Shown here: positions 33,022-44,937 of the stretch, piece by piece
Position numbering within the stretch: the stretch's first letter is position 1
Layout of the letters: every line of letters begins with the position of its first letter
Assembly (NCBI RefSeq): GCF_024171565.1
Contig: NZ_JALJZZ010000001.1
Location: 558,001-622,000 of the forward strand
Direction: 5' to 3'
DNA: 64,000 nucleotides
Source: Okibacterium sp. HSC-33S16
Lineage (GTDB): Bacteria > Actinomycetota > Actinomycetes > Actinomycetales > Microbacteriaceae
Notes under the pieces: model-generated
Told to the model about the DNA's origin: nothing
What the model saw: the letters and a program-made list of their open reading frames with translations, nothing else
Database searches by the model: none
Program-made: the position numbers and the translations under genes

Positions 33022-35304
33022 TCAACCACGCGAAATCGGCCGAGAAAGCACCTCGAAGCCGTCTTGAGACGTCCAACGGAGTTCACCGCGTTGGAACGTT
33101 TGCGTGACCGTTCCGTCCTCGTGGGAGACGGTATCGCCCGTCGGGTGGCCGAGCTCGGAGAGTCCTCCGCCGAGGCGTCGATGCTGGACAGCGAACTCAG
33201 CCGTCATGACGTGCGTGCCGCCGGTAAGCGATGAATAGAGTACGCCGTTCTTGAATTGCTGGCTCTGCCCGCGACCGTCGACGGTACGAACGTCGCCTGT
33301 TGGCATGCCGAGCTGACCGTCCGGCCCACCAAGCTCCGCGTAGCGGGTAGCGATCAGCCCCGAGACGATTCGCGCGCCGTCCGCCTGAGAGACATAGATG
33401 AAGCCGCGTTCGAATTGTTGACCCGACTTGCCTGACGGGTACGTGGTGGTATCGGTTACCGGCGCGCCCAGCGTCTCACTGGTTTTGTCATAGAGGGCAA
33501 TGACCCGGTCGAGGACCATGTGGGCGGTGTCGCCCACCTGAATAATGGCCCCGTTCTTGAACGGCTGACGGGTGACGCCGGATGCAGTGTCCGCGGCGTC
33601 AGTGGGAGAGCCCAGGGCGCTATCCGGGCCACCGAGGCGTTCATAGGTTTCGCCGATGGTGCCGGTGGTCTGATGGATGCCGGTTCGGCGGGAAATGAAC
33701 AGCCACCCGTTCGAGAACTTCTGGCCGATCGTTCCGTTCTTGTACGTCACAGTACTGCCCGCGGGTGATCCGAGGGACCCGGCAGCCCCTCCGCGCTCAC
33801 CATAGACGTTGGCGGCTGCCGTCAGGAGGTATTGCGCGCCCTGCTCCGGGGTATGGATGGCAATACCGTTTTCAAATTCTTGTTGTGTCAAACCGGTCGA
33901 GAGGACAGATGCGGGTGCGAGGGGGGCCCCGAGCACCCCGGATGGACCGTTCTCAACCACGTAAAGATCACCGATCGCGCCCGTCACAGCGATAATCTCG
34001 CCGTCGGCCGACGCGCGGTGAAGCCATCCGTGTTCGAAAGACTGGCTCGACTGATCGCCTTGTGTCTGAGTGTTCGTCGTCGGGTATCCGAGCGGACCGC
34101 TGACGCCGCCCGCCGTAGTGAGGGCTGAGTGAAAGTCTCGCAGAACGAATCGCACACCCGTCTCTGTGGACGAGTAGAGGACGCCATTCCGGAACGTCTG
34201 CGAGTGCTCCTTGGCAGGGCTGGCGGGATATCCGAGGAACCCCGCCGGTCCTCCGGTGAGGTTGTACGCCTCACCGAGGTCGCCGGTGGTCGCCGTTGCG
34301 GTGTCGGTAGACTTTTCCCAGTACGCCCAGCCCGATGTGAATGCCTGGCCGATTCCGCCGTCGGTATAAGTCAGCACTTCGCTGGTCGCGACGCCCAGAC
34401 CGTCAGCAGCCTGAGACAGCTCTGGCGCTGTGCTGAAACGCAACGGCCCCCGCTGCGCGACCGGCGTGGAACCCGCGCGGACCGATCCGAACCACGTCGT
34501 GAAGAGATTGAAAAAGTTGCGGTTTCCATAGGCGGAGCACGCATCTCCGGTACCCGTCCCCGCCGCGAGTGCGGCCGCGTTCGGCTGGTACGGAGTGTAG
34601 GTGTAGAGAGAAGCCGTCGCCATATTCTCGATGTGCACCTCAGATGAGCCGCATGACGCGGTGGGTGACCATCGAATGGCGACCCTTTTTCCGGGAGCGT
34701 ACTGAGTGAACGCTTTCGACGTACCCTCCGGGTTGGTGTAACGAATGAACTGGGACGCTGACTTGTACACTTGGTTGAAGAATCCGAAGTATTCACTGTC
34801 GCACGGGGCCGTGTCGGGGCATCCGTAGCCCATCGCGATGGTGTACTTCCGTTCGGTGGGCCTCGTCGTCGTAACGAGACCCTGCTCCTTCTCCATCAGG
34901 ACAAGAAGCACCTGCGGGTTGATGCCGCAGGCGGTTGCGACCGAGGAAATAATGCGGGCAGCAGACTCCCTCGACCCGCCGTTGTATCGCGAGCACATCG
35001 CATCCGCAGGTCTCGGGGTGGTGGCGAAGGTCGCTGCCCGAAGGCAATCGGTGGCCTCGCAGGCGCTGCCTTTGTCGTCGAGAAAATTCTGGATTTCGCT
35101 CTCGGTCATCGACTGCGCGTTGTAGAAGACCGCGTCATCGATGATGTTTCCGGCGTTGAAGACCGGCGCATCCGCACGCGCAGACAGCACGGCCCCCGTG
35201 GCCAGAACGACGGCGATCACCGCAACGACTGCAACGATGACTGCAGCCCGTCGTGGCAGGCTTCCGCGGCGCTGTGCACGGAGCGGAAACGGAGGGGTGT
35301 TAAT
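33022..35304 (-). CDS. Secreted LGFP-repeat cell-surface protein, probable ATT start
   Basis: This 760-residue protein starts with a signal peptide (LRAQRRGSLPRR, then hydrophobic AAVIVAVVAVIAVVLATGAV, cleavage near SARADA). An N-terminal domain (about residues 45-275) contains six or more cysteines and LLVLMEKEQGLV, which resembles the catalytic helix of lysozyme-like folds. Then follow about eight LGFP-type repeats (GFLGYP, GPLGYP, GVLGAP, GSLGSP, ALGSP, TLGAP, QLGMP, ELGHP), which bind the actinobacterial cell wall. The frame has no ATG, GTG or TTG upstream of a GTG at 35220 that would destroy the signal peptide's basic region; ATT 35304 has AAGGA at ideal spacing. It lies downstream of the GH13 gene. 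Confidence 0.85.
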   Translation of the reverse strand: MNTPPFPLRAQRRGSLPRRAAVIVAVVAVIAVVLATGAVLSARADAPVFNAGNIIDDAVFYNAQSMTESEIQNFLDDKGSACEATDCLRAATFATTPRPADAMCSRYNGGSRESAARIISSVATACGINPQVLLVLMEKEQGLVTTTRPTERKYTIAMGYGCPDTAPCDSEYFGFFNQVYKSASQFIRYTNPEGTSKAFTQYAPGKRVAIRWSPTASCGSSEVHIENMATASLYTYTPYQPNAAALAAGTGTGDACSAYGNRNFFNLFTTWFGSVRAGSTPVAQRGPLRFSTAPELSQAADGLGVATSEVLTYTDGGIGQAFTSGWAYWEKSTDTATATTGDLGEAYNLTGGPAGFLGYPASPAKEHSQTFRNGVLYSSTETGVRFVLRDFHSALTTAGGVSGPLGYPTTNTQTQGDQSSQSFEHGWLHRASADGEIIAVTGAIGDLYVVENGPSGVLGAPLAPASVLSTGLTQQEFENGIAIHTPEQGAQYLLTAAANVYGERGGAAGSLGSPAGSTVTYKNGTIGQKFSNGWLFISRRTGIHQTTGTIGETYERLGGPDSALGSPTDAADTASGVTRQPFKNGAIIQVGDTAHMVLDRVIALYDKTSETLGAPVTDTTTYPSGKSGQQFERGFIYVSQADGARIVSGLIATRYAELGGPDGQLGMPTGDVRTVDGRGQSQQFKNGVLYSSLTGGTHVMTAEFAVQHRRLGGGLSELGHPTGDTVSHEDGTVTQTFQRGELRWTSQDGFEVLSRPISRG

Positions 35305-35503: not shown

Positions 35504-37774
35504 TCAGTTCTCGACGAGAGCGTCCATCGGTTCGATGGGCTCCTCATCCGGGTCCCGACCGAGCAGGAACAATCCTGCATACGGTTCGAGGCGCACGGTG
35601 AAGCTCTGCAGGTCGTCGACGTGACCGATCTCCTCACCGGTCTGGGCGTTGTAGACGATCCGTCGCGGCGTGAGCGCAGATGATCGCACGGTTCCTTCGA
35701 TCGTCTCACCCGTGAAGTTGAGAACGGTCACCTGGAGCCGTGCGTCCTCGAGGGTCGGGTCGCCACCGTCGAGCCGGTGCACCATCACGAGCATCCCGGG
35801 GTGGGCGACGTCCGGGATGTCGAGCTGCGTGCCGATGTCGAGTCCGAGCGTGCTGCGGGTCTCGAGAATACGAGCGACCTGGCTGGCGAATGAGTTCTCA
35901 TCGTCGAGCTGATGCGGAAGCGAACCGTACAGCGAACGGCCACGAGGCATCCCCGAACTGGAAGAATTCGCTTCGGGTTCGGAGTCCATCAGATCGTGCG
36001 CGCCCCGGTGTACCCAGCGCGTGTCACCTTCGGCGATGAGGTCCTTCACCTGCTCGGACGGCAACGGCAGCATGCCCAGCAGATCCCAGGCGCTCAGTGC
36101 GAACACCCCGGGCTGCCAGGCGTTGAACATGACGAGAAGAAGATGAGCCTTGCGGATGTTGTCGATGTGCTCTTCGGTGATGGCGTCGAGCGTCGTCAAT
36201 CCCTGGGCAGCTGCGATAGCGGATGCTGTCGTGCACGCAATTCCGTTGGTCGTAAAAACGAGATTGTAATCGGCAGCATCGCCGGTGAGCTTCTCCACCA
36301 GGTCAGCCCTGATGGTTTCGGCAAGCTGCGCCCCGGTGATGTCCTCGTCGCGGAACGGGTAGACGTCGTTGCGGTGCAGTGTTGCCCAGTGCACCAGCTC
36401 GTAGGTCAACTCGTCGTGGTTTTGGAGGGCGTGCACCAGGCTGACCGGCTCGACACCGGTGGAGAGTGAGGTGCGGAGGGTAAGCCGGAGGAACTCCGTG
36501 TCGCCCATGGCCAGAGCGTGCTGGTAGGCGGGTCGGTTGATGAAGTCGTAGGAAAGGTCGGCGCCGACACGGCCGGTGTCGCGAATGTCCTCCATCGTGA
36601 GGTTGAGCTCCTGGAAGGAGAAACCGCCGACTTTGCGCACCATGCTCGCAATGACGTGGTTGGCCGCCTCGGAGAGCGGGTGGCCCTCAGACCAGGCCGG
36701 TGACCCCTCAGCGCTCTTCTCCACGCCGAGGAATCCGTTGGCGTCGAGACGCAGTGCGCTCGAGCCGAGGTCACCCAGGGAGTGCAGCGCGTCGCCGATG
36801 ACCAGGCGCATGCCGGCGAAGGTCGGGTCGAGCCAGTTGATCGAGGGCTGGCCCTGCTTGAAGTAGTGCAGGTACACCCAGCGGCGGGTTCGGCCGTCGG
36901 CGCCGAGGACCGGGGCCGTGACGCTCCAGTTTGTTTCCTTGTGGCCGGGGGAGTAGAAGATGACCCGCTGCAGCTGGCCGATGATGTACCCCAGGTCGGC
37001 GAGGCGTGCTTCTGTCGCCGGATCCAGGTTGACCGAATCGCGGTGCTCGGGAACGTCGGGGAGTTCGTGCCAGTCTTCTTCCGGGATTTCGACCATGTGG
37101 TAGATGCCCGGGTAGTCCTTGTACCCCATTTCGGCCAGTCGGAAGTCGGCGCCCTTGCCAGTGTGACCCGGGACGATGTCGTCGATGACGCTTCCGCCAT
37201 ACTGGTCGGCAACATCGGAGAGCTGACGGAATTCGTCGTCGGAACCGAACGCCGGGTCGATCTGGGTGCTGATGCGGTCGAAGTGACCGTCGACGCTTGC
37301 GGTGCTCGTCCAGCCGGTGATGCCGCCGGCCTGCTTGACCGGCCCGGTGTGCACGGCAGTGATGCCGATCTTCTGGAACGCCTTCCACAGTTCCTCGTCG
37401 CCGAGGGCAGCGAGGTAGGACTGCCCGGAGGCGGTGATGAGCGAAATTGGGTATGCCGTGAACCAGACCGACGCCGTCTGGATGGCTCGCCGCGCGTCAG
37501 GTCGCGCGTAGGGGTTGCGCCACATGCTTGGCTGGCCGGAGAGACCGCGGCCGAGGACCTCGGCGTCGCGAAGCATGGATTGCCGGATCAGCCACTCGAC
37601 GTACGAGGGGTTCGATGCGTCCGCAGAACGCGGATCGGAAAATGACCGGCGAATGCTGCTCGCCCGCATGTTTGAGCGCGGGCGGAGGCGCTTGGGACGC
37701 GCCGGATAGAGATCTTCGTCGTACGTGATTTCGATTGGCTCGATCTCGATCTCGATCTCGGGTTCGTCAGTCAT
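35504..37774 (-). CDS. GH13 alpha-amylase family protein, trehalose-synthase-like
   Basis: This 756-residue enzyme has the GH13 catalytic regions: region I as DDIVPGHTG (198-206), region [12 protein letters not shown] with nucleophile Asp344, region III FSFQELN with acid/base Glu389, and region [10 protein letters not shown] (His453, Asp454). NHDEL is typical of trehalose synthase/maltosyl-transferring relatives, so interconversion of maltose and trehalose is a reasonable guess, but substrate is unproven. The C-terminal domain is beta-rich. The N-terminus has an acidic EIEIEIE stretch encoded by tandem GAGATC units. ATG 37774 follows GAGGAG; the open frame extends 67 codons upstream without support. 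It is divergent from the eight-gene operon. Confidence 0.87.
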
Positions 37775-37942
37775 CGTGGCGTGCTCCTCTGCCCGTGCAT
37801 ACCAAACGGCGGTCGACCGTTCTGCGTAAGCACGAGTATGCCGGTTATCCGGAATAAGCGGCAATGAGAGTCGACCGGTGGTGTGCCGCGCCCAATTGGT
37901 GTAACGGAGTTGACGATGCCACCTGACCCCTAGAGTGGTCGC

Positions 37943-39043
37943 ATGGCCTTTGAGGGGAGACCAGTGATAACTCAATCGTTCCGTGCCATCGTGGTCGAAG
38001 ACGATCCCGATGTGCTGTTCTATGTGCAGACGCTTCTGACGCGCCGGGGGTTCGACGTTCGCGCGTTATCTGACCCGCTTCTCGCCGCTGAGGCGACCCG
38101 GCAATTTCACCCCGACGTCGTCATCACCGACATCGAAATGCCCGGGCTCAGCGGACTGGACCTCATTGCCCAGGTCCGTGATGCGCAACCCGGAACACCG
38201 GTTGTCGTGATGACCGCACACGTGTCGGTGAACTACGCGGTTTCTGCGCTGCGTAACGCCGCCGACGAGTTCCTCACGAAACCAATCGCATCGAAAGAGC
38301 TCGTCGGTGTGGCCACGCGTCTGGCCGAAGAATTTCGCCGCGCACAGGCATCCGTTCATCGAAATATTGTTCTGGCCATCGGAGCGCACCCCGATGACGT
38401 GGAAATCGGTGTTGGCGGCCTGCTGGCCGCGCACCGTGCTGCGGGGGATACGGTGGCGATTCTGACGCTCTCGCGCGGATCACGTGGCGGAGAGGCAGAT
38501 GGCCGCCAGCACGAGTCGCTCGCGTCGGCGGAGATGCTCGGAGCGCGACTGTTTCTCGAGGACCTGCCCGACACCGCGATTAGCAACGCTGACCCGACAG
38601 TGGGAATCATCGAGCGGGTGGTGGCCGAGGTCAACCCGACGACCGTGTACACGCACAGCGACCACGACCGGCACCAGGACCACCGGGCCGTGCACAGCGC
38701 TGCGCTGGTGGCAACGCGCCGTGTGAAGACTGTCGCGTGCTTCCAGAGCCCGTCTGCCACGGTTGATTTCCGGCCGAACCGGTTCGTGTCGATTGACGGG
38801 TTCACCGAAAGGAAGCTCGAGCTGCTGAACTGCTTCGCCTCGCAGGCGGGCATTCGCGACTACCTTGAACCGGACTTTGTGCTGGCCACCGCTCGCTATT
38901 GGAGCAGGTACGGCACCGGAAAGAACTGCGAACCGCTCGAAATCGTGCGGGAAGCATCCGACGTTGTGGCATCGCACGCCGACATCGAGAGCGCCGTGCG
39001 CGCCGAGAAGAACCGAATTTACGAGCAGGGAGCCTCACGATGA
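37943..39043 (+). CDS. Receiver domain fused to PIG-L/LmbE deacetylase
   Basis: This 366-residue fusion has two parts. Residues 13-132 are a CheY-like receiver with acidic Asp20-Asp21, phospho-acceptor Asp63 (ITDIEMPG), Thr91 and Lys113. Residues 140-330 are a PIG-L deacetylase with the zinc motif AHPDDVE (His149, Asp152) and the third ligand in HQDHRAVH (His247). PIG-L enzymes remove N-acetyl groups from GlcNAc-containing compounds. The fusion implies that phosphorylation controls deacetylase activity. It is the first gene of an eight-gene operon ending with a histidine kinase. No DNA-binding region is present. It overlaps the next gene by four bases. Confidence 0.93.
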
Positions 39044-40041
39044 CCCGAGTTTTAGTCACAGGAACAGGGGGACCGGCCGGAGTTGCCGTCGTGCGATCCC
39101 TGCTGAACCGCGGAGACGTCGAGCTGTTCTCGGCCGACATGGACGGTTGGGCAAGCGGACTCTATCTGGTGCCAGCCGATCACCGCAGAATTGTTCCGCG
39201 CGGGCTGGCTCCTGACTTTGTGGACGCGATTATCGAACTTTGCACAAACGACCACATTGACGTGGTGTTCTCAACGGTCGACGCGGAGCTGCCAGCGCTG
39301 GCTTCGCGCCGTGATGAACTCCAGGCCGAGACCGGCGCAGTTCTGACCGCCCCGACTCTCGCAACACTCGACGTGACCCTCGATAAGTTCCTGCTGGCCG
39401 AGCGCTGCACGCCGGTTGTACGGGTTCCGGAGACGCGCCTGCTCAACGCCGACGGCGCTGCGGCCGACTGGGACTTCCCGGTGATCGTGAAGCCCCGCCG
39501 CGGTGCCGGATCGCGAGGAGTGCGTATGGTCGAGAGCCGTGACGCATTGAACTCGCTCGGCGTCGACGAGGCACTGATCATTCAGGAACTCCTGCCGGGC
39601 GACGAGTTCTCTGTCGACGTTTTTGCGGATGCAGATGGTCACGTGATCGCATCGGTTCCGCGCACCCGTACCCGGGTTGATTCCGGTGTCTCGATTGCGG
39701 GGCACACCGTCAAAAACGATGAACTCGAACAGACTGCCGCCGCGGTGGCCGGCGCCATCGGCCTGGTCGGTGTCGCGAACGTTCAGCTGCGGTACGACCG
39801 GCACGGGGTCGCGGCGCTGCTTGAGGTGAACCCGCGGTTTCCAGGCGCCATGCCCCTGACGATCGCCGCCGGCGTGGACATGCCCTCGCTCGCCCTCGAC
39901 CTGGCGCTCGGGGCAGAACTGCCGAGCAGCATCGACTTTGCGGAGATCGCCAACGTGCGGTTCCTCGAGGATGTCTTCGTACCGACGAGCGAGATCCTGT
40001 ACTCCGAGAACGCAGCACACGACGAAGGTCTCGAAGAATGA
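39040..40041 (+). CDS. ATP-grasp domain protein (carboxylate-amine ligase type)
   Basis: This 333-residue protein has an N-terminal pre-ATP-grasp Rossmann-like region (RVLVTGTGGPAGVAVVRSLL), then an ATP-grasp fold with Lys116 (DKFLLAERC), the ATP loop IVKPRRGAGSRGV (Lys151), IIQELLPGDEFSVDVF (Glu183) and the metal motif LLEVNPRFPG (Glu262, Asn264). It resembles the CarB/PylC-type ligases that join a carboxylate to an amine or acceptor. ATG 39040 overlaps the previous stop (ATGA) and has GGGAG upstream. The acceptor is unknown; an amine exposed by the upstream deacetylase is an attractive possibility. Confidence 0.9.
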   Translation: MTRVLVTGTGGPAGVAVVRSLLNRGDVELFSADMDGWASGLYLVPADHRRIVPRGLAPDFVDAIIELCTNDHIDVVFSTVDAELPALASRRDELQAETGAVLTAPTLATLDVTLDKFLLAERCTPVVRVPETRLLNADGAAADWDFPVIVKPRRGAGSRGVRMVESRDALNSLGVDEALIIQELLPGDEFSVDVFADADGHVIASVPRTRTRVDSGVSIAGHTVKNDELEQTAAAVAGAIGLVGVANVQLRYDRHGVAALLEVNPRFPGAMPLTIAAGVDMPSLALDLALGAELPSSIDFAEIANVRFLEDVFVPTSEILYSENAAHDEGLEE

Positions 40042-40772
40042 GTCAGAACGCCGCGTCGATCCTGGCCGGGGATCACCATGTCCACTCCACCTTCTCCGAC
40101 GACGCGACAAGCACCCTTGCCGAGAATGTCGCGGCGGCGGTAGAACACGGGGTCGCGCGTCTCCGGCTGGTCGACCACGTTCGCCAGTCGACCACCTGGG
40201 TTCCGGATTTCCTTCGGGCGGTCGCAGAGCTCGACGTGCCCGATGGGCTGACGGTGCTGACGGGCGTCGAGGCGAAGATTCTTAACGCCTCGGGATCGCT
40301 CGACATCCCACCGGGATTGAGCTTCGGTGACGGTGGAATTGATACCGTCCTCATCGCCGACCACCAGTTTCCTGGAACGGACGGACCCTGGTCGCCGCGA
40401 GAAGCGCGCGAACGCCTCGATCAAGGCCTCGACGTCGGATACGCACTCGACCTCCTGATCGGTGCTCTGGTCGGCGCCATGGAGTCAGTGCCGTCAGCTC
40501 AGTTGGCACACTGTTTCTCCATCCTTCCCAAGATCGGCTTGTCGGAAGGCGACTTCACGGACGACCAGCTTCGGACGTGGGCGAGGGCAGCGGCTCGAAC
40601 GGGAACCCTCCTCGAAGTCAACGAAAAATGGGCATGCCCCGGACCGCGCGCCCTGCGGGCGGCTGTGGACGCTGGCGTCACGCTCGTTGCGTCCACGGAC
40701 AGCCATGCGGCCGGAGACATCGGACGGTATGCGCGTGTGAACCACCTCCTCGCTGAGGCGGGTGTCGAATGA
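40038..40772 (+). CDS. PHP domain phosphoesterase-like protein
   Basis: This 244-residue protein has the PHP metal-binding set: DHHVHSTFSDD (His14, His16, Asp21), LVDHVRQS (His47), GVEAKIL (Glu78), IADHQFPG (His109), LAHCFS and the C-terminal TDSHA. These ligands form the trinuclear centre of histidinol-phosphatase-type and other PHP hydrolases. The substrate is probably a phosphoester produced within the operon. It overlaps both neighbours by four bases. Confidence 0.9.
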   Translation: MSQNAASILAGDHHVHSTFSDDATSTLAENVAAAVEHGVARLRLVDHVRQSTTWVPDFLRAVAELDVPDGLTVLTGVEAKILNASGSLDIPPGLSFGDGGIDTVLIADHQFPGTDGPWSPREARERLDQGLDVGYALDLLIGALVGAMESVPSAQLAHCFSILPKIGLSEGDFTDDQLRTWARAAARTGTLLEVNEKWACPGPRALRAAVDAGVTLVASTDSHAAGDIGRYARVNHLLAEAGVE

Positions 40773-42268
40773 CGGGAATTGATATCGGAGCGATCACGGC
40801 GGGAACCCTGACCGTCGTCTTCCTCGTATTTGTCTTCACCGGCGCCATCCCGGTGATCTCGGCGGCGTACTCGTTTCTCGCCATTCCGCTCCACGCTTTC
40901 CGCAATCACTACGCGAAGGCCAAGCCATACACCCCTCGCGTTGCTATCGTCATTCCGGCGTGGAACGAAGGTGCGGTGATCGGTGCGTCCATCGACCGGC
41001 TTATGGCGCTCGACTACCCCCTCGAATCGCTGCGGCTGTACGTCGTCGACGATGCCAGTACCGACGACACCCCTGACGTTATCCAGGCGAAAGAACAGCA
41101 GTACCCGGGCAACGTCTTCCACCTGCGACGTGAACAGGGTGGTCAGGGCAAGGCCCACACGCTGAACCACGGCATCCGACTGATCCTCGAGGATGACTGG
41201 ATGGAAGCCCTCCTCGTCATGGATGCCGACGTCATCTACACACCGAACTCCCTTCGACGGATGACCAGGCACCTCGCAGATCCTGATGTTGGAGCGGTCT
41301 CCGCCTACATCCGCGAAGGCAGCAAAGACAAGAACTACCTCACCCGGTTTATTGCGCTCGAGTATGTGCTCTCGCAGCCAGCCGCGCGACGCGCCCAGAA
41401 CGTTCTGGGGGCTCAGGCTTGCCTGGCCGGAGGGGCACAGCTTCACTCGCGGGAGAATCTGATCGCGATCGGCGGACAGATCGATACCTCCTCGCTGGCC
41501 GAGGACACAATCACGACGTTCGAAACGCAACTCCGCGGGCGGAAGGTGGTTTTCGAACCGCTTGCCGTTGTGCTCGCCGAGGAACCCGGTTCCATCGACG
41601 CGCTCTGGAAGCAACGGCTGCGCTGGGCTCGAGGTAACGTCACCGTGACGTCGAGGTATCGACGCATCTGGTTCCGCCCGTCGCGTGTCCACAAGCTCGG
41701 CACAATCTCGTTCGGCCTGGTCTGGTTCAGCTTGTGGTTGCTTCCCATCGCGATGGTGCTGTCGTCCATCGGGCTCGTCGGACTTCTGCTGCTCGAAAGC
41801 GATCTGGCGTCAACGGTCTTCCGCGCGCTGTGGATCTCGGCCGCCTGCACCTTCGCCTTCACCCTGGCTCTGGGGGTGCAGCTCGATTCTGAACTGACGC
41901 GGATCACGTGGCGCGAAGTGCTGACCTTCCCGGGCATCATCTCGATGCTCGTCATGCTGACGGCGTTCTTCCCAGGAGTCCTGCTGGACTGGGTGCCGAG
42001 CCTGTTTCATCTGAGGTTTACATCGGATGGGCTCTTTTGGGTGACCCTGTCGATCTACATCTGGATCTCTGTGTCGATGTTCGGCGCCTGGATAGCGCGA
42101 AAGATTGAGAACACGGCAATCGGCCGGGTGCTCACTCCCGTTCTGATCTATCTGGTCGGATATGGTTCTCTCTTGTGCGCGATCACCTTCGACTCGTACA
42201 TCAAAGAACTGCGACATGCTGAGGCCAAGTGGGACAAGACAGAAAAGACGGGACGGGTGACCGCGTGA
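40769..42268 (+). CDS. Processive GT2 glycosyltransferase, membrane-embedded
   Basis: This 499-residue protein has an N-terminal membrane helix (about 8-40) and a GT2 catalytic domain with VIPAWNEG (62-69), DDASTDD (Asp94-95), the DXD motif MDADV (152-154), the general-base region LAEDT (Glu245-Asp246) and the processivity motif QRLRW (282-286). Four or more membrane helices follow (about 310-485). The D,D,D,Q(Q/R)XRW set is that of cellulose, hyaluronan and poly-GlcNAc synthases, so it probably extrudes a polymer of hexose or amino-sugar units. No PilZ domain is visible; regulation is likely through the operon's receivers. Confidence 0.92.
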   Translation: MTGIDIGAITAGTLTVVFLVFVFTGAIPVISAAYSFLAIPLHAFRNHYAKAKPYTPRVAIVIPAWNEGAVIGASIDRLMALDYPLESLRLYVVDDASTDDTPDVIQAKEQQYPGNVFHLRREQGGQGKAHTLNHGIRLILEDDWMEALLVMDADVIYTPNSLRRMTRHLADPDVGAVSAYIREGSKDKNYLTRFIALEYVLSQPAARRAQNVLGAQACLAGGAQLHSRENLIAIGGQIDTSSLAEDTITTFETQLRGRKVVFEPLAVVLAEEPGSIDALWKQRLRWARGNVTVTSRYRRIWFRPSRVHKLGTISFGLVWFSLWLLPIAMVLSSIGLVGLLLLESDLASTVFRALWISAACTFAFTLALGVQLDSELTRITWREVLTFPGIISMLVMLTAFFPGVLLDWVPSLFHLRFTSDGLFWVTLSIYIWISVSMFGAWIARKIENTAIGRVLTPVLIYLVGYGSLLCAITFDSYIKELRHAEAKWDKTEKTGRVTA

Positions 42269-42435
42269 GCGCTCCAGATCTGACACCCACCGACCCGCGC
42301 AATCCCGGGGACGCCTTCCTCCAGCAGGAGATCGACGAGAACAGGCTTTCCGAACGCGCGCTGATTCCACAAGCACTCATCGCCTTTGCGTTTGTTGCCG
42401 TGCTCGTCATTGTGAGGGAGATCTTTTTCGTATGA
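42265..42435 (+). CDS. 56-residue single-span membrane protein
   Basis: A small protein (SAPDLTPTDPRNPGDAFLQQ at the N-terminus) with a polar 30-residue front part and one C-terminal membrane helix (ALIPQALIAFAFVAVLVIV). Both junctions overlap neighbours by four bases (GTGA at 42265, ATGA at 42432), which strongly supports it as a real gene although it is short. Its position directly after the synthase suggests a small accessory subunit, as seen with other polysaccharide synthases. No family is recognised. Confidence 0.8.
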   Translation: MSAPDLTPTDPRNPGDAFLQQEIDENRLSERALIPQALIAFAFVAVLVIVREIFFV

Positions 42436-42794
42436 GTGATCCCACCCGAGTCCTTATCGTCGAGGACAACCCCGATCAGCGCGACCTTCTCCGGCGCAAC
42501 TTCGAGCGCGCTGGATGCACGGTCGTCCTCGCAGAGAGCGCCGAGGCGGCAACAGCGGAGTACCGCAAACACACCCCCGATCTCGCGGTTGTCGACCTAA
42601 TCCTTCCCGGCATGGACGGCCCCACCTTCATCGATCAACTCAAATCGGAGCGACCCGATTGTGCCATCGTCGTGACCAGTGTCCTCGACCCGGCCGACTT
42701 TCCAACGTCCGATGGAGTGCTACCAAAACCGTTCACACGTGCGCAAGTTGACGCGGTCCTCGAGTCGTGTCTCCCGGAAAGGCAACATCAATGA
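42432..42794 (+). CDS. Stand-alone response-regulator receiver domain
   Basis: This 120-residue CheY-like protein has acidic Glu11-Asp12, phospho-acceptor Asp55 (VVDLILPGMDG), Thr82-Ser83 and Lys99 (LPKPFTRAQ). No output domain is present. It could act as a phosphate shuttle or allosteric partner for the kinase and the receiver-deacetylase fusion. It overlaps the next receiver by four bases. Confidence 0.94.
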   Translation: MSDPTRVLIVEDNPDQRDLLRRNFERAGCTVVLAESAEAATAEYRKHTPDLAVVDLILPGMDGPTFIDQLKSERPDCAIVVTSVLDPADFPTSDGVLPKPFTRAQVDAVLESCLPERQHQ

Positions 42795-43186
42795 CCGAAG
42801 GTCCGCAGCGCCGCGTAGTAATTGCAGATGACGATGCTGATATGCGGATGCTTGTGGAGATTGCGGTGCGCAAGGCGGGCATGATGCTCGCTGCGGTGGC
42901 CACAGACGGAGACCAGGCGTGGCAGGCAATCCTCGACCACACGCCGGATCTGATTGTGCTGGACGTTTCGATGCCGGGGATGAGCGGCCTCGATGTGTGT
43001 CGTCGTGTCCGCAATGATCCCACTCTCGCTCACATTCCCATCCTGTTGCTGTCGGCCGGCGTGAGCGGCGCTTCGCGCGAAGCTGGCAAGCAATCCGGAG
43101 CAGACGATTTCATGCCGAAGCCGTTCAGCCCGAAGGCGTTGATTGAAAAACTTATCGTCCTGTCTAGCGGACGGGGAAGCGAGTGA
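42791..43186 (+). CDS. Stand-alone response-regulator receiver domain
   Basis: This 131-residue receiver has Asp12-Asp13-Asp14, phospho-acceptor Asp58 (IVLDVSMPGMSG), Ser88 and Lys110 (FMPKPFSPKAL). ATG 42791 is fixed by the ATGA overlap with the preceding gene; an upstream in-frame start at 42767 is less likely. There is no DNA-binding output. The two single receivers differ considerably, so they are not a recent duplication. Confidence 0.94.
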   Translation: MTEGPQRRVVIADDDADMRMLVEIAVRKAGMMLAAVATDGDQAWQAILDHTPDLIVLDVSMPGMSGLDVCRRVRNDPTLAHIPILLLSAGVSGASREAGKQSGADDFMPKPFSPKALIEKLIVLSSGRGSE

Positions 43187-44937
43187 GCCTGCTGTACAGA
43201 GCGGCGAAGTGGGTCATCCGCTCCGACCGACCGAGTCCGTTGCTCAAGCATTTCCCCACCGTGATTGCATTGGCGGTCGCGATGCTCATTACGGTGTGGT
43301 TCGGGCTCCCCATGCCTCAGCCAATCGCCGTCGTGTGTTCTGCCGTGGTTGGTGCCGGGTCGGTTGCCCTCGCCGCGTGGTTCTCCCGCAACGAGGCAAC
43401 AACCCGCTGGGTTCTTGCCGTGCCGCTGGCAGGGCTGCTCGCGGTCGCATTGCTTCGCCTGGGAACGGGCGGTGCCACCTCGCTCTTTGCGTCGCTCATG
43501 ATTCTTCCGATCGTCTGGATAGCGTCGGAAGACGGTCGACGATGGATTGCCGTTGCCGGATTGGGTACCGCTGCGGCCATCATGCTTCCGTTTGCCGTTC
43601 TCGGAGAGGAACCACGCGATGCGACTGAGTGGCTGAGGGGCGTCGTCGCACCGCTCGTATACACGATGGTTGCAGCGGTCATCAATGAGATGTCGAGGCA
43701 GAACCGCTCACAGTTACGAGCCATCCGCGCACTCGCCGAGCAACGCGAAGGGACTCTGGCTGAATCCCTGGCTCAAGCAAGCCAGCTTCGCGAATCCGAA
43801 GCTGAGCTGCGCCGGGCGAACTCATTCACATCGAGCGTCCTCGACGCGGTGACGGTGCAGTCGATCATCGGAACCGATCTCACCGGTCTTGTCAACGTGT
43901 GGAACCCGGGCGCCGCGTCCATGTTGGGTCGAACAGCCGAAGAGACGCTGGGGCGCGCGTCCATCCTCGACTTCCATCTCGACGACGAACTCGAGAATCG
44001 TTCACGAGAGCTCAACTACCCGACCGGAGCAACCGTGCTCAACCCCGGATTCTCCGCGCTTGTCGAGTCAGCTCGCCTCGGGGTGGCCGAGATGCACGAG
44101 TGGACCTACCGACGCGCTGACGGCAGCGAGTTCCCGGCCGAAGTGGCTGTCACGCGACGGGTGGACGATCGAGGCGCGACCACCGGATACATCTTCGTCG
44201 CGACGGACATCACCCAGGCGGTGGAGGTCTCCCGCCTCAAGGACGAATTTGTCGGCCTGGTCTCGCACGAACTTCGCACACCGCTCAGCTCAATCCTCGG
44301 CTACCTCGAACTCATGAAGGACGATGAGGATGCGCCGCTCTCGGACGAGCAACAACTGTACCTGGGAGTCGCCGAGCGTAACGCCCATCGGTTGCTCGGG
44401 CTTGTGGGAGACCTACTCTTCACGGCACAGGCAGACTCCGGTGGATTCCCGCTCGCCGTGGGGGAGGTGGCCGTCGGCGACGTGATTACCGGCGCCGTCG
44501 CCTCGGCGCGACCGGTCGCGGACGCGGCCGGCATCACACTGGAGTCGACAGGCGTCCCCAGCGACCTCGTCATTGAGGCTGATCGTGGACGCCTCGGCCA
44601 GGCCATCGACAATCTCGTGTCCAACGCCATCAAATTCACGCCGCGAGGTGGCAGCGTCTCGGTCGGGCTGGTCGAACCCGACGGCGACGGTCCGCTCGAG
44701 ATCACGGTGCGAGACACCGGCATGGGAATCCCCGCCGCTGAGCTTGACCAGCTCTTCACCCGGTTCTTCCGCGCCACGACGGCCACCGCAAACGCGGTTC
44801 CGGGCGTCGGCCTCGGTCTCGTCATCACCAAGGCCATTGTCCAGGCCCACCACGGTGAGCTCGATGTGTCGAGCGTGGAAGGCGAAGGAACGGTGTTCAC
44901 CCTCCGGCTGCCGGTCGACGCGCGCGTCCTCTCCTAG
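43183..44937 (+). CDS. Membrane sensor histidine kinase with PAS domain
   Basis: This 584-residue kinase has five or six membrane helices (about residues 23-172), a short coiled coil (175-212), a PAS domain (about 212-345, ending IFVATDITQAVEVSRLK), a HisKA dimerisation helix with the phospho-acceptor in SHELRTPLS (His362) and a HATPase_c domain with N box IDNLVSNAIKF, DTGMGIP and GVGLGLVITKA. There is no attached receiver. The membrane part is a putative sensor with little periplasmic sequence, so it may sense the membrane or an intramembrane ligand. It is the last gene of the operon; its stop overlaps the stop of the convergent metallo-hydrolase. Confidence 0.94.
   Translation: MSLLYRAAKWVIRSDRPSPLLKHFPTVIALAVAMLITVWFGLPMPQPIAVVCSAVVGAGSVALAAWFSRNEATTRWVLAVPLAGLLAVALLRLGTGGATSLFASLMILPIVWIASEDGRRWIAVAGLGTAAAIMLPFAVLGEEPRDATEWLRGVVAPLVYTMVAAVINEMSRQNRSQLRAIRALAEQREGTLAESLAQASQLRESEAELRRANSFTSSVLDAVTVQSIIGTDLTGLVNVWNPGAASMLGRTAEETLGRASILDFHLDDELENRSRELNYPTGATVLNPGFSALVESARLGVAEMHEWTYRRADGSEFPAEVAVTRRVDDRGATTGYIFVATDITQAVEVSRLKDEFVGLVSHELRTPLSSILGYLELMKDDEDAPLSDEQQLYLGVAERNAHRLLGLVGDLLFTAQADSGGFPLAVGEVAVGDVITGAVASARPVADAAGITLESTGVPSDLVIEADRGRLGQAIDNLVSNAIKFTPRGGSVSVGLVEPDGDGPLEITVRDTGMGIPAAELDQLFTRFFRATTATANAVPGVGLGLVITKAIVQAHHGELDVSSVEGEGTVFTLRLPVDARVLS

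Follow-up and report, generated by a model that had tools for sequence, protein, structure and literature searches.

Can a bacterial sensor kinase govern a sugar-modifying enzyme directly, through a receiver domain fused to that enzyme, and what would such a pathway make? The question is raised by a stretch of 64,000 nucleotides from Okibacterium sp. HSC-33S16 (contig NZ_JALJZZ010000001.1, positions 558,001 to 622,000; the whole stretch is called the window here), in which eight genes spanning 37943-44937 on the forward strand encode a receiver fused to a PIG-L/LmbE-type de-N-acetylase (REC-PIG-L), an ATP-grasp ligase, a PHP-domain protein, a membrane glycosyltransferase of family 2 (GT2), a membrane mini-protein, two stand-alone receivers and a membrane sensor histidine kinase. 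An earlier note, made from the sequence alone, had described an eight-gene operon with these domains and with 4-base overlaps throughout, and on re-check all frames and domain assignments hold and seven of the seven junctions are indeed 4-base overlaps, ATGA or GTGA. Its interpretation is supported in part. The eight genes are not one fixed set: judged by gene order, the operon is a five-gene core (PIG-L, ATP-grasp, PHP, GT2 and mini-protein) with an attachable signalling part that comes in several layouts, and the signal most likely acts through the deacetylase that carries the fused receiver and not through gene expression.

Close relatives were sought by scanning named genomes with the PHP protein, which found 114, and the best 80 of the 114 were taken as loci. 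All 80 have PIG-L, ATP-grasp and PHP in this order, with GT2 directly after PHP in 69 and a kinase in 78; the two kinase-less loci are L052, where a contig end cuts PIG-L, and L082, where the contig reaches about 250 bases beyond the 5' end of PIG-L. Among the hosts are Microbacterium, Leifsonia, Leucobacter, Cellulomonas, Agromyces, Sanguibacter, Janibacter, Nakamurella and Pseudonocardia; Mycetocola manganoxydans, the closest relative found among the named genomes, is 67-87% identical protein by protein, and the core enzymes are 54-87% identical to those of the window among the matches listed, so that an order and a tight coupling recurring over such distances point to more than chance. Residue conservation was counted on whole proteins only (PIG-L in 73, ATP-grasp in 78, PHP in 80, GT2 in 67 and the kinase in 77 relatives, plus the window), and the alignments of core proteins comprise 18-21 selected rows. 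The number of stand-alone receivers between PHP and kinase is the more fluid part, with two in 10 of these best 80 relatives, one in 60, none in 8, and none found in the two kinase-less loci. The expectation that the genes stay together in other Micrococcales was thus correct for a conserved unit, with the trio in order everywhere, and too strong for the full eight-gene set, which is found in 10 of the 80. Broken reading frames, from decay or assembly errors, affect the GT2 and kinase genes of L084, the ATP-grasp and kinase genes of L102 and several genes of the more distant L174.

Further afield, a family-level collection gave a strong PHP match (E < 1e-60) in 43 of 398 genomes, the window's included, with 13 more weak ones, and distant sampling gave matches in 14/297 genomes for the order, 4/396 for the phylum (one weak and set aside) and 3/24, 5/159, 1/24 and 3/121 for the families of four hits, all counts including the genomes searched from. 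Thirteen distant regions were used (L157-L163 and L170-L175); L164, with a 27% PHP match and no other core gene, was excluded. All 13 keep the order PIG-L, ATP-grasp, PHP, GT2 (in L174 with the broken frames just mentioned and in a genome 72% complete), and a kinase lies nearby in six of them: upstream on the same strand in L158, L159 and L174, upstream on the opposite strand in L157 and L173, and downstream in L175. The other seven have no kinase within the at least 6.3 kb checked on each side. The signalling genes have shifted position several times and yet stayed linked, a partly independent argument for the coupling of receiver and kinase.

That coupling can be tallied over 93 loci (80 close and 13 distant). 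An intact receiver is fused to PIG-L in 84, and in 83 of these 84 a kinase is present in the locus, L082 being the exception; L049 and L052 are truncated within PIG-L; and the remaining seven loci have neither an intact fused receiver nor a kinase (0/7). One of the seven, L162, encodes a bare PIG-L without receiver, while the six that still hold a receiver-like stretch have changed the catalytic lysine to D or N and the threonine to A, G or V. Where a kinase is linked, by contrast, the fused receiver keeps the D, D or E, D, T and K residues in 82 of 83 loci, and for the 83rd, L174, the automatic alignment failed and the printed sequence has the usual motifs. In eight kinase-bearing loci the fused receiver is the sole receiver detected by profiles, which derive from receivers of the fused type and could overlook remote ones. 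The kinase would on these grounds be cognate to REC-PIG-L, and since the fused receiver stands alone in eight loci and the receivers of the window carry no DNA-binding domain, the deacetylase itself is the likeliest output.

What the enzymes work on is suggested by the company that their relatives keep on plasmids. Relatives of the ATP-grasp ligase occur in 116 plasmid records, of which seven regions were fetched, not at random, and six are annotated; all six are of glycan type (Priestia, Haloarcula, Roseibium, Sphingobium, Halobaculum and Sinorhizobium medicae). In five of the six the ATP-grasp gene adjoins a HAD (three) or a PHP gene (two), which suggests that a phosphatase-type enzyme, PHP or HAD, is a regular partner of this ligase. 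For PIG-L, three of 52 plasmid records were fetched, and the relative lies beside a GT2 gene in Escherichia coli, within a polysaccharide locus in Paracoccus, and next to an acetyltransferase and YaiO in Enterobacter; PHP relatives were not found on plasmids at 1e-6. Two of the ATP-grasp regions hold observations of their own. On the Roseibium aggregatum plasmid (L179:1087-7602) the adjacent ATP-grasp and HAD genes of a polysaccharide locus are directly preceded by a response regulator gene, and about 2 kb farther upstream, on the opposite strand, lies a gene for a kinase; signalling may be coupled to this type of ligase there too. On the Sinorhizobium medicae plasmid (L182:1517-6930) PHP and ATP-grasp overlap by four bases directly behind the sulfate-activation genes cysD, nodQ and cysQ.

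The smallest member of the core needs a justification of its own. Directly behind the stop of GT2, 78 of 81 loci have a small, strongly hydrophobic open reading frame under a strict hydrophobicity limit, which misses L159 and L161 (where it is present at lower score) and L171, and the same type of frame follows 0/92 PIG-L, 0/92 ATP-grasp and 0/83 kinase stops, so the 56-residue protein is taken as real; after PHP it occurs at 11 of 92 stops, which equals the number of loci without an in-operon GT2 (L174 was excluded from this control). A small hydrophobic frame is present in 80 of 80 close relatives, in 77 with a start exactly 4 bases ahead of the stop of the preceding gene, where the candidate start closest to -4 was picked. 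It also follows GT2 in 7/7 of the first-fetched distant cores, with or without kinase, and therefore belongs to the core and not to the signalling genes; the idea that it is part of the two-component system was rejected on this ground, and it is a probable partner of GT2 or of the core pathway. The 11 of 80 loci without an in-operon GT2 are all Leifsonia, with the mini-protein directly 3' of PHP. A further nine genomes with this layout (genus g76) were searched, and nine of nine carry a GT2 elsewhere, 69-73% identical, with no mini-protein behind it at any of the six fetched sites. A partner of the relocated GT2 was also sought there, and three of the six sites, those with gene lists examined, have no consistent one. 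Near the relocated GT2 in L134 (3979-5976) and L136 (9326-11367) lie two oxidoreductase-type genes, directly before it in L136 and about 2 kb off in L134, presumably luciferase-like and FMN-reductase-like; six to seven Cellulomonas loci (L105, L112, L116-L120) also have genes of these two kinds, upstream of the operon on the opposite strand, which could be coincidence or the trace of an old linkage.

Since the relatives of the ATP-grasp ligase in other organisms occupy glycan-type loci, the operon is best read as serving a surface glycan or glycoconjugate; the earlier note had inferred an aminosugar polymer or surface glycoconjugate as the product. We would give about even chances to a pathway of the cytoplasm and inner membrane for an N-modified aminosugar glycan or glycoconjugate in which the two-component system directly controls one enzyme. 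GT2, aided by the mini-protein, would transfer a sugar, probably N-acetylglucosamine (GlcNAc), to an acceptor or growing chain; PIG-L would strip the N-acetyl group in the cytoplasm; the ligase would couple the amine thus exposed to an amino acid or another carboxylate; and the PHP protein would take a phosphate off the substrate or product of the ligation. The kinase would phosphorylate the receiver fused to PIG-L and so switch deacetylation, instead of or besides transcription, while the stand-alone receivers probably relay or buffer phosphate. The gene set, its conservation, the intact catalytic and phospho-acceptor residues, the association of receiver and kinase and the glycan-type context of the ATP-grasp ligase are observed, and we infer all substrates, the sequence of the reactions and which way the control runs.

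Several points weigh against this proposal. A cytoplasmic PIG-L is unable to act on a polymer once it is exported, the assignment of PHP as a phosphatase would follow from its family and from the analogy with HAD neighbours, and both ATP-grasp and PHP score under the curated cut-offs of every NCBIfam model matched. No sugar-nucleotide, export or assembly genes are recognised by Pfam among the eight proteins of the operon, and no flanking genes conserved between genera were found that could name the product; an attempt to deduce the product from the flanks was dropped, the shared flank families being limited to close relatives. The operon is patchy, as two of six genomes of the window's genus carry it. 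The mini-protein stays in the operon when GT2 relocates in Leifsonia, and this solitary move weakens the idea of a fixed pair of synthase and accessory. Finally, in a tree of 35 selected loci (midpoint root, L174 omitted) all kinase-less loci but L162 fall into a single clade, with support of 1.0 without L162 and 0.77 with it, so they stand for one or two evolutionary events and not for seven.

The seven cores without kinase or intact receiver also mean that the deacetylase does not in general need phosphorylation, and 70 of the 80 close relatives have stand-alone receivers, so one could take the two-component genes for ordinary neighbours that act on transcription through an unlinked regulator, with the receiver on PIG-L decorative or dimerising only. 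We regard this as improbable: phospho-residues that are kept almost wherever a kinase is linked, the loss of lysine and threonine in six of six kinase-less loci still holding the domain, the eight loci where profiles find the fused receiver alone, and a window operon in which Pfam recognises no DNA-binding domain all speak for a receiver that is used.

The nature of the product divides opinion along the GT2. It may, somewhat doubtfully, be a processive synthase, as the earlier note took it to be, that extrudes a polymer resembling poly-N-acetylglucosamine, with the mini-protein as an IcaD/PgaD-like accessory and with PIG-L and ATP-grasp acting on a precursor or on the cytoplasmic chain end. 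The PgaC/IcaA model TIGR03937 is its best NCBIfam match, at 125.3 bits against a cut-off of 422.3, and the DxD (152-154) and QxxRW (282-286) motifs are present, with D152, D154, Q282, R285 and W286 invariant in 18 rows. Small membrane partners of GT2 synthases are also known, pgaD and icaD being non-homologous and both needed for their glycosyltransferases to function fully (PMC7112194). In a fold search the GT2 model lies close to hyaluronan synthase and BcsA, and has the mannosyltransferase PcManGT as its best full-length match. The predicted full-length fold thus fits PcManGT, which we take to be non-processive and to act on lipid-linked acceptors, at least as well as hyaluronan synthase, and the "polymer-type synthase" of the earlier note cannot be upheld as established. 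The same match suits a small soluble or lipid-anchored conjugate, GlcNAc being placed on a small acceptor, deacetylated and aminoacylated, for which mycothiol, bacillithiol and the NodC-NodB-NodA order of lipo-chitooligosaccharides are parallels. Such a conjugate, which we think as doubtful as the polymer, would agree with the absence of signal and membrane domains from PIG-L, ligase and PHP by Pfam, with the fused receiver as a cytoplasmic domain, with BshB1 as best solved relative of PIG-L, and with MftF (84.5 bits) and NodC (74.1 bits) among the other NCBIfam matches of GT2. It is set back by a BshB1 model score of 81.4 bits against a cut-off of 182.5, by the lack of an identified acceptor, and by the presence elsewhere in the genome of Mca (above cut-off) and an MshB-like gene (below cut-off), which make it unlikely that the operon is this organism's mycothiol pathway, an assignment that we rejected.

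The directly controlled pathway for an N-modified aminosugar glycan can be extended, tentatively and with expectations below even, into a bolder version: an ancient PIG-L/ATP-grasp/PHP core, with archaeal traces, would make an aminoacylated aminosugar, a phosphorelay would gate its de-N-acetylation, and the kinase would determine within seconds, with no need for transcription, how a surface molecule is charged or modified, in what would be an undescribed class of pathway. If direct control is true, the operon would show with unusual clarity how a bacterial sensor can govern a biosynthetic enzyme: kinase, receiver-enzyme and pathway share one operon, and the kinase-less natural variants have also lost key receiver residues. 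Two groups would moreover gain a first function, namely the PIG-L/ATP-grasp/PHP set, which recurs in hosts as far apart as actinobacteria and a haloarchaeon, and a family of one-helix mini-proteins easily missed by gene finders. Cultivated soil and leaf bacteria carry the operon (Microbacterium, Leifsonia, Cellulomonas), which makes it experimentally accessible.

Table 1. The eight genes of the operon, with window coordinates and the match or observation behind each assignment.
Feature	Position	Strand	Evidence
REC-PIG-L, receiver fused to PIG-L/LmbE de-N-acetylase	37943..39043	+	Pfam PF00072 2.2e-27, PF02585 1.6e-23
ATP-grasp ligase, PRK12767 / PylC-like	39040..40041	+	Pfam PF15632 6.6e-31
PHP-domain metallo-phosphoesterase, YcdX/HisJ-like	40038..40772	+	Pfam PF02811 2e-7
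Membrane GT2, cellulose/hyaluronan-synthase fold	40769..42268	+	Pfam PF13641 2.2e-30
56-residue one-helix membrane mini-protein	42265..42435	+	hydrophobic open reading frame conserved in relatives
Stand-alone receiver RR2	42432..42794	+	Pfam PF00072 1.3e-18, no output domain
Stand-alone receiver RR3	42791..43186	+	Pfam PF00072 5.3e-26, no output domain
Membrane sensor histidine kinase	43183..44937	+	Pfam PF02518 3e-28, PF00512 5.9e-18, PF13426 3.2e-9

The coordinates given earlier for these genes stand apart from the first start, which is probably GTG 37964 and not ATG 37943, because the purine-rich GAGGGGAG sits just 5' of this GTG and the PIG-L alignment with the closest relative, L042, begins at residue 9 of the window protein. 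In REC-PIG-L the receiver residues D20, D21, D63, T91 and K113 are conserved, as are the AHPDD and HxxHQDH-type motifs, which are intact, and TT1542 (1uan) stands beside BshB1 (6p2t) as best solved relative. The ATP-grasp ligase reaches up to 161 bits against NCBIfam PRK12767 models, all under cut-off, and its nearest solved structure is 2pn1, while PHP matches a profile of YcdX (1m65) at E 1.8e-10, with HxH, GvEA and DSH stretches aligning and H14, H16, H47, E78, H109, H158, D221 and H223 invariant in a 21-row alignment. The kinase has five predicted N-terminal helices by hydropathy, followed by PAS, HisKA and HATPase domains, with a conserved SHELRTP stretch.

Promoter and terminator scans gave no signal above shuffled sequences. 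Upstream lies a divergent amylase-like gene (35504-37975, reverse strand; its Pfam match is just under cut-off), the longest frame of which starts with TTG and overlaps the first gene of the operon; it probably starts at an ATG near 37775, which would leave about 170-190 bases for a divergent promoter region. Beyond it, at 33022-35220 on the reverse strand, is a 732-residue protein with four stretches of LGFP repeats, which we take to be of the cell-wall binding type. On the 3' flank an opposite-strand lactamase-fold gene overlaps the end of the kinase gene by four bases. An anti-phage system was considered and rejected, the PADLOC matches being weak and confined to receiver and kinase domains, and for the Ter-operon ATP-grasp pathway suggested by PF15632 no Ter families were present in the operon or in the seven neighbouring genes scanned.

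The earlier note had not recognised the combination as a described system, and we likewise found no description of the gene set, or of a receiver fused to PIG-L, in the open-access literature, a search outside which the surveys of response-regulator output domains lay. The mycothiol and bacillithiol logic of glycosyltransferase, PIG-L deacetylase and ligase that it drew on is an analogy and no more: the glycosyltransferase here is a GT2 (PF13641) and the ligase an ATP-grasp enzyme, whereas MshA/BshA and MshC/BshC belong to other families, and the best 25 of the 96 NCBIfam models matched do not include MshB. The pgaABCD and icaADBC operons share the GT2 superfamily, aminosugar deacetylation and perhaps, in the mini-protein, a separate small membrane accessory, and differ in that PgaB/IcaB is the deacetylase there and PIG-L here, no CE4-type deacetylase (PgaB/IcaB) being matched by Pfam among the eight proteins, and in that the window GT2 falls under the PgaC cut-off; to our knowledge these operons have no ligase. 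A likeness on the PIG-L side is the locus on the E. coli plasmid KS-NP019_P1 (L185), with PIG-L, GT2, acetyltransferase and YaiO, where GT2 comes directly after a PIG-L 34% identical over 187 residues; its GT2, however, is 24% identical over 234 residues, it has an outer-membrane barrel, and no ATP-grasp, PHP or two-component genes are annotated beside it. The gene name yaiS is annotated among the plasmid PIG-L relatives, and yaiP is presumably another name from this locus.

A likeness to the enzyme trio is found on a plasmid of the haloarchaeon Halobaculum sp. XH14 (L181:5294-7643), where the same three families, PIG-L, ATP-grasp and PHP, stand in the order of the window with 4-base overlaps in a glycan-type neighbourhood, a call resting on an aminotransferase and a polysaccharide deacetylase. 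It differs in that its ATP-grasp is 31% identical, its PIG-L and PHP resemble those of the window weakly and in part, and no receiver, kinase or glycosyltransferase is annotated beside it. For the signalling side the closest likeness is with response regulators of enzymatic output, in which a receiver is fused to a glycan-type metabolic enzyme whose activity could follow an environmental signal: receivers fused to metabolic enzymes are on record, among them a receiver on a BcsA-like (PF13641) glycosyltransferase in Methanobacteriaceae (PMC5847659). Here, in contrast, the receiver sits on PIG-L, the PF13641 glycosyltransferase has a gene of its own in the operon, a kinase gene is regularly found alongside, and the arrangement extends over several actinobacterial families. 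A known kind of regulator is thus joined, in a new variant, to a core whose probable task is the modification of an aminosugar glycan.

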